From Pseudarthrobacter sp. NIBRBAC000502770 (GTDB taxonomy: Bacteria > Actinomycetota > Actinomycetes > Actinomycetales > Micrococcaceae): a DNA stretch of 64,000 nt. Positions 41,578 through 46,187 of the stretch are shown piece after piece. The position numbers were made by a program, and so were the translations under genes. The stretch is taken from contig NZ_CP041198.1 of the NCBI RefSeq assembly GCF_006517815.1, forward strand, positions 2,480,001 to 2,544,000, written 5' to 3'. Every line of letters starts with the position of its first letter. Position 1 is the stretch's first letter. Below the pieces are notes generated by a model. That model saw only the letters and a program-made list of their open reading frames with translations. It was not told where the DNA came from and did not search any database.

Positions 41578-42843
41578 GTGGCACTGATCCGCAGGGTCGC
41601 TTTGCTTTCCCTCCACACCTCCCCCATGGAACAGCCCGGCTCCGGTGATGCAGGCGGAATGAACGTCTATATCCGCGAGCTGGCCTCGGCGCTGGCCGAG
41701 GCAGGTGTGGAGGTGGAGATCTTCACGCGCGCCACCTCAGCCGACCAGCCCGCCGTCGAGCATCCCGACCCCGGGGTGTGCGTTCACAACGTCCTGGCCG
41801 GCCCGCCCCGGAAGATCCCCAAGGAGGAGCTGCCCGGGCTGCTCCACGCCATGGTCGCGGAAATTGAGCAGATCCGCCGCCGCCAGCCGCACGGCCGTTA
41901 CGACGTCATCCACTCCCACTACTGGGTGTCCGGGATCGCCGGGCTGGAGCTGTCCGAGCTGTGGGGCGTGCCGCTGGTGCACACCATGCACACCATGGCC
42001 AAGGTCAAGAACCTGCTGCTGGAATCCGGTGAGCAGCCTGAGCCCCGGCGCCGCGAACTTGGCGAGCACCGCATCGTGGACGGCGCGGCCAGGCTCATCG
42101 CCAACACCAGCTCTGAGGCCGCCGAACTCGTCTCCCACTACGGCGCCACCTACGACCGAATCGACATCGCCCCGCCCGGCGTGGACCTCGCCACGTTCAC
42201 TCCCGCCTTCCGGGCACGGTCCAGGGCCGGGCACGGCGTCAGCCCGGAGACGTTCCACTTGGTTTTCGCCGGCCGCATCCAGCGCCTGAAAGGCCCCCAG
42301 GTCCTGGTCAAGGCCGCGGCGCTGCTGCGCAAACGCCGCCCGGACATTGACCTGCGCGTCACCATCCTGGGCGCTTTGAGCGGCAACAAGGAGTTCAACC
42401 TCCGCTGCCTGGTGGCGGAGGCGGGAATGGACGACGTCGTCACGCAGCTTCCGCCGGTGAAGGCCCCCGAGCTGGCGTCCTGGTTCCGCGCGGCCGACGT
42501 TGTGGTGATGCCTTCCTTCAGCGAATCCTTCGGGCTCGTGGCACTCGAGGCCCAGGCCTGCGGCACGCCTGTGGTGGCCACCCGGGTGGGCGGCCTGTCC
42601 CGCGCCATCTTCCACGGCCGGACCGGGCTCCTGGTGGACGGCCACCACGCAGCCGACTGGGCCGATGCCCTGGAGGCCCTCTACGACGACCCCGCCACCC
42701 GTGAGGACCTGGGCCGGGCCGCTGCCATCCGGGCCCAGAACTCCGGCTGGCAGCGCACTGCCGCCATCACGCTGGAAAGCTACCATGCCGCCGTCGACAA
42801 CTTCGTGGGCCGCCGCCTGGCCCCGGCGGTTCCCGCGTCCTGA
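41578..42843 (+). CDS. mshA: Glycosyltransferase family 4, D-inositol-3-phosphate GlcNAc transferase-like
   Basis: A 421-residue GT-B enzyme, the first step of mycothiol synthesis: UDP-GlcNAc plus 1L-inositol-1-phosphate. The MshA N-terminus is evident: RVALLSLHTSPMEQPGSGDAG, GGMNVYIRELASAL, and DVIHSHYWVSGIAG, HTMHTMAKVKN. The donor site has FAGRIQRLKGPQVLV, SFSESFGLVALEAQACGTPV. It starts at GTG 41578, 3 bases after an AAGGAGGT ribosome-binding site. ino1, which makes its inositol phosphate, lies 3.4 kb away. Confidence 0.9.
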   Translation: MALIRRVALLSLHTSPMEQPGSGDAGGMNVYIRELASALAEAGVEVEIFTRATSADQPAVEHPDPGVCVHNVLAGPPRKIPKEELPGLLHAMVAEIEQIRRRQPHGRYDVIHSHYWVSGIAGLELSELWGVPLVHTMHTMAKVKNLLLESGEQPEPRRRELGEHRIVDGAARLIANTSSEAAELVSHYGATYDRIDIAPPGVDLATFTPAFRARSRAGHGVSPETFHLVFAGRIQRLKGPQVLVKAAALLRKRRPDIDLRVTILGALSGNKEFNLRCLVAEAGMDDVVTQLPPVKAPELASWFRAADVVVMPSFSESFGLVALEAQACGTPVVATRVGGLSRAIFHGRTGLLVDGHHAADWADALEALYDDPATREDLGRAAAIRAQNSGWQRTAAITLESYHAAVDNFVGRRLAPAVPAS

Positions 42844-44625: not shown

Positions 44626-44950
44626 ACGCCCCATCACCTTCCGCCCCCAACTCACCAACGCCCCATCACCTCCCGCCCCAACTCACCAACGCCCCATCAC
44701 CTCCCGCCCCAACTCACCAACGCCCCATCACCTCCCGCCCCAACTCACCAACGCCCCATCACCTCCCGCCCCAACTCACCAACGCCCCATCACCTCCCGC
44801 CCCAACTCACCAACGCCCCATCACCTCCCGCCCCAACTCACCAACGCCCCATCACCTCCCGCCCCAATTCACCAACGCCCGATCACCTCCCGCCCCAACG
44901 CACCAACGCCCTATCACCTCCCGCCCCCAATTCACCAACGCCCTATCACC
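44626..44950. repeat. Left repeat array: 11 copies of ACGCCCCATCACC-type core
   Basis: Core copies start at 44626, 44658, 44689, 44720, 44751, 44782, 44813, 44844, 44875, 44906 and 44938: spacing 31 bp throughout, with 32 bp at each end. Inner units are near-identical, drift is confined to the ends (CCCG and CCCT variants). Read on the minus strand the core is GGTGATGGGGCGT, and the spacer contains a second, weaker G-rich half-unit GGTGAGTTGGGGCGGG. The array fills most of the 400-base gap between fhs and the nuclease-like gene. Period 31 is not a multiple of 3, so it is not a coding repeat. Confidence 0.97.
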
Positions 44951-44973
44951 TTGAAACCATCCAGGTCTGTTCC

Positions 44974-44982
44974 TGTGGATAA
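44974..44982 (-). promoter_or_regulatory. DnaA-box-like site
   Basis: TTATCCACA on the minus strand, an exact match to the DnaA box consensus, between the left array and the nuclease-like gene. One such 9-mer may occur by chance in a window this size, so the call is weak. Confidence 0.3.
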
Positions 44983-45021
44983 CTCCTGCAGGGGTCTAGC
45001 CTCATACGCCAGAATGCCAGC

Positions 45022-45981
45022 ATGCATAAGCGCGCTGATCTACCGTCGACCCTGGCAAGCTCTCCGTTCACATACGACTCGGCGGTGACTGCCGGTGTGT
45101 CAGCGAAGCGGCTGCGGAAGGATGACGTGGTCCACGTCAGCAGGCGGTTGTACCGCCCCTCGACTTGGAGCTTCGAGTTGGAAGGCGCGGCACGGGTCCT
45201 CTCCGAAGTTTCGCCAGGTGCGTGGGTTTCGCACGTCACAGCTGCGCGTTTGCACTGTCAACTGCTTCCCGCGTGGCTGTCGGATTCAACTGAACTGCAT
45301 ATGAGCAAACCGAAGCATTTGCCGCAGGTGCGCCGGAAAGGTGTGGTTGCCCATAAGGTCATTGCCAGTGCCGACGAAATCGAAACTGTCGACGGTATCC
45401 GCATCAGCACTCGTTCCCGAACCTGGCTCGACTTGGCCCGGCGGCTGTCGCTGGCTGAGCTGGTCTGCCTTGGAGACCAAATCATTCGCATCCCTCGAGC
45501 GGAGTTTGAAGCCAGGTCACAGCCCTTTGACACATTGGAGGGTCTCAGCGCTCTAGTCAGCCGGCACCCTAATCTTCAGGGGGTCGTGCGTGCCCGGGAA
45601 GCTTTGGAGCTGATGCGGGTCGGCGCTGATTCGGCACCGGAATCGATGCTGCGGCTGGCAATGCTTGACGCGAACCTGCCAGACCCTGACCTGCAGATCG
45701 CACTTCGACCGAATGACGCAGCTTCCCCTACTGCCGACCTGGGCTACCGTCACCGGCGCCTTGCAGTCCAGTACGACGGCGGTCACCATCTTCTTGAGGC
45801 TCAGCGATTGAGTGATCGACGGCGCGACAAAGCCTTCGAATCAGCTGGGTGGACGGTTCTGGTATTCACCAAGGACGATGCCACGGACGGTTTTCAACGA
45901 GCTGTGGCGGCAATCAAACGACACCTTCACACGGCGTGGATTGACCAATCCTACTCGGCCGGTTTTGCCGGAAGCGGGTGA
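45022..45981 (+). CDS. AbiEi-like N-terminus plus DUF559/Vsr-like nuclease domain protein
   Basis: A 319-residue protein. The N-terminal third resembles the winged-helix AbiEi antitoxin domain (SAVTAGVSAKRLRKDDVVHVSRRLYRP), and the next part the AbiEi C-terminal domain (VSHVTAARLHCQLLP). The last 90 residues resemble DUF559/Vsr-type nucleases: ADLGYRHRRLAVQYDGGHHLLE, then DRRRDKAFESAGWTVLVF. The usual Glu before the Asp-Gly is Gln here. No toxin partner gene is adjacent, so a standard toxin-antitoxin role is doubtful. Ribosome-binding site weak; codon use is less GC-biased than that of the flanking genes. It is the only gene within the repeat-bounded unit. Confidence 0.83.
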   Translation: MHKRADLPSTLASSPFTYDSAVTAGVSAKRLRKDDVVHVSRRLYRPSTWSFELEGAARVLSEVSPGAWVSHVTAARLHCQLLPAWLSDSTELHMSKPKHLPQVRRKGVVAHKVIASADEIETVDGIRISTRSRTWLDLARRLSLAELVCLGDQIIRIPRAEFEARSQPFDTLEGLSALVSRHPNLQGVVRAREALELMRVGADSAPESMLRLAMLDANLPDPDLQIALRPNDAASPTADLGYRHRRLAVQYDGGHHLLEAQRLSDRRRDKAFESAGWTVLVFTKDDATDGFQRAVAAIKRHLHTAWIDQSYSAGFAGSG

Positions 45982-46047
45982 AAACAAAACTCCACCGCCG
46001 CCTCCAAAATCGCAGCCGCTGTGTTTACGCTCCTCAGGGGACGGGAA

Positions 46048-46187
46048 GTGATGGGGCGTCCCGAAAAAGCCGGCAAAAGGTGATGGGGCGTTTCGGGAGA
46101 GTACGCAGGAAGTGATGGGGCGTCCCGAAAAAGCCGGCAAAAAGTGATGGGGCGTCCCGGAAAAGCCGGCCGGAAGTGGTGGGGCGT
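46048..46187. repeat. Right repeat array: 5 copies of GTGATGGGGCGT core
   Basis: Cores start at 46048, 46080, 46112, 46144 and 46176, exactly 32 bp apart; the last copy reads GTGGTGGGGCGT. Spacers (20 bases) 1, 3 and 4 are CCCGAAAAAGCCGGCAAAA-like; spacer 2 differs. The core is the complement of that in the left array, with unrelated spacers. The rest of 45982-46253 holds no gene. Confidence 0.95.

Follow-up and report, generated by a model that had tools for sequence, protein, structure and literature searches.

A DUF559 gene in the window (the whole 64,000-nucleotide stretch of Pseudarthrobacter sp. DNA analyzed here) lies between two opposed arrays of one repeat core. We found that, in soil bacteria of the Arthrobacter group, such arrays accompany many close homologs of this gene (clade A below) and none of the other DUF559 genes with which we compared them. 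Judged from these and other sequence comparisons, the gene and its repeats probably form a single system that works like REP elements with their RAYT enzyme.

The window locus and its protein

The left (upstream) array (44626..44951) begins 4 bp past the stop codon of fhs and holds 11 units with a 31/32-bp period, each with the core GTGATGGGGCGT on the − strand (eight exact cores and three with one mismatch). The array looks like a recent local expansion, since eight of its 10 steps are 31 bp and its units are nearly identical. In a close relative (G035), the same position holds three cores in tandem. The right (downstream) array (46048..46187) holds five units at 32-bp steps with the core on the + strand, of which four are exact and one has a single mismatch. 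The window as a whole contained 21 core matches with up to two mismatches against 10.4 expected, a number reached in none of 100 shuffles. Between the arrays there is a single open reading frame, the DUF559 gene (45022..45981, + strand; 319 amino acids), and its neighbors are the genes for formate–tetrahydrofolate ligase (fhs) and, on the other strand, inositol-3-phosphate synthase (ino1). A first-pass annotation of this DNA had described 11 and five opposed core copies around one gene that fills the fhs–ino1 gap and lacks a toxin partner. All of this held up on reanalysis; fhs and ino1 adjoin the gene, and no AbiEii toxin gene lies beside it. We also noted a gene for MshA, the first glycosyltransferase of mycothiol synthesis, upstream of fhs (41578–42843) and near ino1, which is of the mycothiol type.

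The protein joins an AbiEi-like N-terminal part to a Vsr/EDxHD-type nuclease part, and its earlier description as AbiEi/DUF559-like was borne out for both halves. The AbiEi-like region (residues 16–141; 45067..45444, + strand), which we propose as the DNA-recognition part, was detected with PADLOC (PDLC02249, E = 4.5e-10), and a Pfam scan of the window protein gave no AbiEi match. DUF559 (PF04480) matched residues 241–302 with 26.4 bits against a gathering cut-off of 20.6. The nuclease part spans residues 207–302 (45640..45927, + strand). Residues E207, D239, D252, H256, and D265 were invariant across 47 homologs, in which the E, D, H, and D of the Vsr/EDxHD signature are present as E207, D239, H256, and D265; we take these four to be the catalytic residues of the nuclease part. 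A profile of the 47 sequences gave a weak match over residues 242–309 to PDB entry 3r3p (“Mobile intron protein”; E = 0.09), presumably an EDxHD/Vsr-type homing endonuclease. Judging from dN/dS values of 0.11–0.14 in five pairs, two of which include the window gene, the DUF559 gene is evidently under purifying selection.

Dispersal, variation, and spacing of the core

The exact core GTGATGGGGCGT occurred 60 times in the window's genome; one copy stands alone within a called gene, and all others belong to 16 array sites (the window being one). The dispersed arrays of the clade-A type are gene-less and mostly intergenic among these 16 sites, nine of which have closely spaced head-to-head cores (− then +) and a 32-bp step. 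According to crude gene calls, the genes that flank the 16 sites are convergent, divergent, or co-directional; one site (S11) overlaps a called ORF that is possibly spurious. The first-pass annotation had held that a link would be refuted if arrays were no rarer at a distance from such genes than next to them. Fifteen of the 16 sites do lie elsewhere, which does not decide the matter because REP-like dispersed repeats look the same.

All 16 sites were within ∼1.45 Mb of dnaA (3778184), with 13 on one arm and three on the other (a count that ignores relatedness among sites), and the far third of the chromosome had none. Outside the 16 sites, an array with another core type (GTGAGCGGGCGT and GTGATCGGGCGT) was observed at G000:C2:37689–37764 in the same genome. 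Many of the array sites are orthologous in other species. In G035, the same array with its flanks is present twice in opposite orientation (G035:C1:3818–3892 and 2747029–2747103), owing to a duplication or an assembly effect. Pseudarthrobacter phenanthrenivorans SWC37 (L128) carries two successive copies of an array and its flank, suggesting amplification of the array plus neighboring DNA; in the window's genome that site adjoins ribosomal-protein genes (named by eye). Array units are homogenized among themselves and have no unique spacers, which rules out a CRISPR.

A species-level scan with an exact tandem pair returned 34 stretches, of which 33 were in Pseudarthrobacter/Arthrobacter records. 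The sole other match came from Mycobacterium gordonae (L102); its unit is 16 bp long, and we discarded it as unrelated. A general tandem pattern, consisting of GTGANNNNGCNT twice at 32 bp, was present in 107 of 121 same-genus genomes, and the same pattern read backwards, used as a control, gave three matches in all. The variable bases of the general core are lineage-specific. At one orthologous site, marked by aminotransferase and response-regulator genes (named by eye), the core is GTGAGCGGGCGT in G017, GTGAGAGAGCGT in G020, GTGATGGAGCAT in G006 and G029, and GTGATAGCGCAT in G010. In a family-wide draw, the general pattern was found in 31 of 245 genomes (15 of the 18 from this genus, 11 from genus g24, and five others); the last five had a single match each, which is near chance because the backward control also gave three matches. 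Genus g24 (e.g., G243, G284, G322, G332, and G341) is rich in the pattern, with 28–44 matches.

The left array had no match in phages or plasmids, and viral contigs had no match to three tandem general cores; 70 stretches of viral contigs fit a peptide pattern, none of which encodes a relative of the DUF559 protein. A search of seven loci against Rfam returned only tRNAs, with one sub-threshold match in the window region. Array-less orthologous sites, compared by eye, gave no clean boundary and established neither an insertion footprint nor a target duplication.

We recorded the distinct steps between neighboring cores of equal variable bases at all fetched loci. Tandem steps were 32 bp (257), 31 bp (13), 33 bp (3), and 64 bp (28); all other values occurred once or a few times. 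Head-to-head steps were concentrated at 15/16 bp (5), 18 bp (4), 24/25 bp (20), 35/36 bp (10), and 46/47 bp (48, of which 41 came from clade C), with longer ones at 57 bp (3), 66/67 bp (2), 78/79 bp (3), and 111/112 bp (2). A period of 10.5 bp fit the 55 steps outside clade C with R = 0.82 (best period 10.65 bp), with orthologous sites counted repeatedly. In the window's genome alone, nine sites gave R = 0.85 at 10.5 bp (Monte Carlo p = 0.0004) and do not separate periods of 10.0, 10.5, and 11.0 bp (R of 0.83, 0.85, and 0.91). The 18-bp steps fall off the ∼10.5-bp ladder. The ladder suggests that protein units may sit on one face of the helix.

DUF559 clades, their repeats, and putative recognition residues

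The association between arrays and genes was assessed in 116 DUF559 loci, comprising those among the matches listed and loci fetched around ino1. Clade A was defined as proteins with at least 58% identity to the window protein, all others having 55% or less, a cut-off chosen after seeing the gap. Tandem arrays lay within 1 kb of the gene at 55 of 83 clade-A loci and at 0 of 33 other loci. A first reading based on the single exact core, according to which gene and arrays were unrelated, was overturned by the general core. Arrays flanked the gene on both sides at 25 of the 55 loci, upstream only at six, and downstream only at 24. Orientation at clade-A loci was uniform, with all 101 upstream tandem cores on the − strand and all 149 downstream tandem cores on the + strand. 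When single cores within 300 bp were counted, upstream cores were − at 47 of 83 clade-A loci and + at 0 of 83, and downstream cores were + at 60 of 83 and − at 14 of 83; at least one core was on the expected side within this distance at 70 of 83. There were counter-cases: 28 of the 83 loci had no tandem array within 1 kb, 13 lacked any core within 300 bp on the side where it was expected, and G108 has a clade-A gene and zero tandem matches.

The association was present at the fhs–ino1 site itself, where arrays accompanied 37 of 52 clade-A genes and 0 of 22 genes of other clades (Fisher p = 5e-9, relatedness uncorrected), and at the remaining sites (18 of 31 versus 0 of 11); at least three chromosomal sites harbor clade-A genes. 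We inferred an fhs DNA tree with a quick method (73 rows, five of them with under half of the columns). Protein type at fhs–ino1 switches at least 18 times on this tree, and in 13 supported independent pairs, arrays went with clade A in five to nine and against it in none (median p = 0.008). Inside clade A, the presence of arrays showed little clustering along the protein tree (19 changes, compared to a minimum of 18 and a mean of 23 in 200 shuffles).

At the level of whole genomes, those with a clade-A protein (n = 82, partial matches included) had a median of 27 tandem matches and a single zero, versus a median of two and 13 zeros in the 39 genomes without a clade-A protein among the matches listed. 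With relatedness allowed for, 12 pairs gave a mean of 6.4 in the same direction and 0.1 against (median p = 0.031). More than three tandem matches were found in 17 of these 39 genomes, including G043 (118), G028 (46), G025 (24), G032 (19), G094 (18), G026 (17), and G120 (10). Arrays in genomes without a clade-A protein among the matches listed must be relics or have another driver. The fhs–ino1 site of G023 has no DUF559 gene and, as read by eye, two CTGATAGAGCGT cores 32 bp apart plus a degenerate opposed core, a gene-less and partly decayed array that is unlisted by the automatic scan, which requires GTGA.

Other DUF559 clades have repeats of their own. Clade B, found mostly at fhs–ino1, and clade C, found at another site, are flanked by palindromes of ∼60 bp, with the cores TGATAGNGCAAC and GTGACCCCGCGTTG in clades B and C. 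Within 300-bp B/C flanks, the distance between two 9-bp cores was 46 in 35 of the 36 pairs separated by 10–130 bp (45 in the other), and 11 pairs at any distance in this range were counted in 400 kb of control DNA. Dispersal of these palindromes elsewhere was sparse (400 kb of five genomes). Comparison of distinct B and C elements (40 and 47) showed that the two arms of an element covary; position 7/57 of the B element, for instance, was paired at 0.68 versus 0.37 when shuffled. An exact inverted repeat of length 12 or more lay beside the gene at 30 of 33 B/C loci (25 downstream, 18 upstream) and at eight of 83 clade-A loci; control genes from the window's genome, a set near arrays, had one downstream in 24 of 164 cases and upstream in eight of 164. 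Words of length 14 or more common to both 250-bp flanks were found at 30 of 83 clade-A loci and one of 156 controls, at 19 of 33 and 21 of 27 loci in B/C, at all six clade-D loci, and in six of eight plasmid-collection records (one extra locus was dropped for a short flank). The search of the plasmid collection yielded eight places in all. Each of four Tsukamurella loci among them had its own flank-shared word, and an inverted repeat lay close to the gene at two of these four. Three tandem copies were present upstream in Arthrobacter ERGS1:01. The DUF559 gathering cut-off was passed by one B and one Tsukamurella protein among those scanned and failed by one C and one D protein. A Nonomuraea homolog (L300) had neither a shared flank word of 14 nor an inverted repeat close to the gene. 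The other DUF559 genes of the window's genome (L021–L023) had no tandem arrays; inverted repeats were seen near the distant DUF559 genes L021 and L022 and not near L023.

Two positions in the AbiEi-like region, residues 102 and 112 (Q and K in the window protein; codons 102–112 at 45325..45357, + strand), covary with core bases family-wide. Out of 179 variable columns, they ranked first and second in normalized mutual information with core bases 5–6 (relatedness uncorrected). GAGA cores went with [SAFP]-T at these two residues in 22 of 22 cases (the F coming from a badly aligned fragment), GGGA with E-T in six of seven, GGAA with E-S (1/1), and GCGG and GCGC with G-R in 10 of 11, the exception being the partial, misaligned protein of G009. 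GCGA cores were divided between G-R (2/5) and the [AS]-T typical of GAGA (3/5). The remaining types were GCAA with A-S (1/1), GTGA with G-T and S-T, TGGG/TGGC with Q-K (3/3), and CCGG with A-K (1/1). The clade C core CCCC went with [RC]-R (9/9), the clade B core TAGN with [PQ]-T in 20 of 21 (Q-R in the other), and two further palindromes paired CAGG with P-T and GAGA with A-R. The proteins of G030 and G042 belong to a mostly GC-type protein clade, yet have S102/T112 together with GAGA arrays, like distant GAGA proteins.

Independent pairs for this residue–core relation numbered four and two, with none against, too few for significance. Core type changed 15 times on the protein tree versus a minimum of 25 in 200 shuffles, a result that linkage alone could give. 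The unlinked agreement between flank cores and distant cores is a stronger check than this clustering. The flank core matched the distant core listed most often in 14 of the 16 genomes in which both were seen (G000, G035, G071, G020, G059, G051, G055, G065, G104, G087, G039, G017, G030, and G105), with TGGC and TGGG taken as one, likewise GCGA and GCGG in G065, and with one or two distant sites each among those listed for G017, G030, and G105. In G001 and G079, the flank core was unlike most listed distant cores. The covariation of the core with residues 102 and 112 backs the earlier suggestion that the protein may recognize the repeats, and we consider it very likely that it does.

Known systems, proposed mechanism, and alternatives

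Excerpts from two papers on REP/RAYT systems (PMC3116915, PMC3733652) describe an enzyme gene that lies between copies of its own palindrome, inverted pairs dispersed without a gene, a repeat sequence tied to the enzyme, and intergenic and 3′-end sites. Like these REPtrons, the DUF559 gene has repeats of its own beside it (55 of 83 clade-A loci; an inverted repeat at 30 of 33 other loci), and gene-less, mostly intergenic copies of clade-A arrays are dispersed (60 exact cores, 16 sites). In contrast to them, the DUF559 system has a Vsr-type nuclease in place of a Y1/HUH enzyme, and a GTGANNNNGC core in 32-bp phased tandem arrays; the element sequences, read by eye, have no GTAG tag at the hairpin foot. 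The Y1 (HUH) tyrosine transposase (PF01797) was found in none of 20 genus genomes and in five of 14 control genomes. This absence from all 20 genomes speaks against a RAYT as the driver of the arrays and places the DUF559 system outside the REP/RAYT family. The first-pass analogy, a RAYT-like partnership built on a different nuclease, gains support from the clade-A-specific arrays and from the absence of Y1 in 20 of 20 genomes.

We propose that the AbiEi-like part of the protein would bind the core GTGANNNNGC[GA]T, that residues around 102 and 112 would help to set its variable bases, and that copies of the protein would occupy one helix face both next to each other and in head-to-head pairs. 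The Vsr-type nuclease part would then nick or cut at or near the repeats so occupied, and as the cut DNA is repaired or copied, new intergenic arrays would be seeded and old ones expanded. A complete element would be the gene between its − and + arrays, and gene-less head-to-head arrays would be dispersed partial copies. That the nuclease drives the spread of the repeats, as RAYTs would by analogy, has about an even chance of being right: we infer cutting from the conserved nuclease residues, and propagation through cut and copied DNA from the dispersal of arrays, their local growth, and the alternation at fhs–ino1.

Recognition of the repeats could also serve autoregulation, with an AbiEi-like repressor using the flanking repeats as operators, dispersed arrays acting as a regulon or as decoys, and the nuclease acting elsewhere. 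The AbiEi-type domain, the recognition covariation, cores phased like protein sites, and a repeat that many B, C, and D loci have upstream, near −110 to −133, would all suit a repressor. However, a second copy of the repeat lies downstream, and its first core shares bases with the stop codon at 11 of 83 clade-A loci; by crude gene calls, distant arrays adjoin ordinary genes of every orientation; and array growth would be left unexplained. We regard autoregulation as unlikely.

Quite improbable is a reading in which the repeats serve the host as terminators or as gyrase or nucleoid sites and the DUF559 gene is merely one neighbor of many. Arrays are conserved at orthologous sites between species, several in the window's genome lie between convergent genes (crude gene calls), and the four palindromes tested (one B element, one C element, and two clade-A centers) fold strongly as single strands, as such a role would have it. 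But at one and the same site, arrays come with clade A and none with clade B, every examined protein clade has its own repeat, and spacers of 3, 13, and 23 nt on the helical ladder are unexpected for RNA hairpins. Arrays could act as transcription terminators in a side role, which would leave the clade-specific sequence and the helical spacing unexplained. Least probable of all is another mobility enzyme with the DUF559 gene as its passenger, for which the many arrays without a clade-A protein among the matches listed speak (e.g., 118 matches in G043) and against which stand the Y1 transposase in 0 of 20 genomes, the covariation of protein residues with the core, and the recurrence of the pattern with other DUF559 clades and sequences, including Tsukamurella.

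The reading of gene and repeats as a RAYT-like system can be set beside other known elements. REP-like repeats without a RAYT, compared here by description only, share the lack of a RAYT, and the available excerpts name no enzyme partner. Within the same bacterial group, REP-like palindromes, which may differ from the repeats described here, have been counted by RepRanger in Arthrobacter livingstonensis (PMC12306157); the terms RAYT, endonuclease, and DUF do not occur in that text. According to excerpts of another paper, EDxHD/Vsr nucleases have been described in phage introns (PMC12350094). The window family resembles EDxHD/Vsr homing endonucleases through its weak profile match to 3r3p, and differs from them in that the window gene lies outside an intron or intein and has its own flanking repeats and an AbiEi-like recognition part. 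The AbiEi-like N-terminal region is shared with the antitoxin of AbiE toxin–antitoxin systems, and known AbiEi proteins bind inverted repeats; unlike those systems, the window gene has no adjacent AbiEii, and a nuclease domain is added. In the openly licensed PMC literature, we found no description of a DUF559/AbiEi–repeat system, and searches with core sequence strings gave papers that were unrelated, by title, among the matches listed; an earlier description is possible, since subscription journals were outside the scope of the search.

At its broadest, our tentative proposal, to which we give slightly less than an even chance, is that AbiEi–DUF559 proteins may be a widespread second class of bacterial repeat-driving enzyme that has no relationship to RAYTs. 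They would be Vsr/EDxHD nucleases whose specificity code can be read, with a palindrome of its own for every clade, and would make and move dispersed intergenic repeats, lining up in the Arthrobacter group on helically phased tandem arrays. To our knowledge, DUF559 is a family without a settled role, and its members gain a testable partner in the repeat that flanks the gene. These results suggest that the owner of REP-like repeats can be an enzyme that is not related to RAYTs, a point relevant to REP families without a known transposase. The two residues that change with the core offer an entry to a protein–DNA recognition code and to how dispersed repeats alter their sequence in concert.
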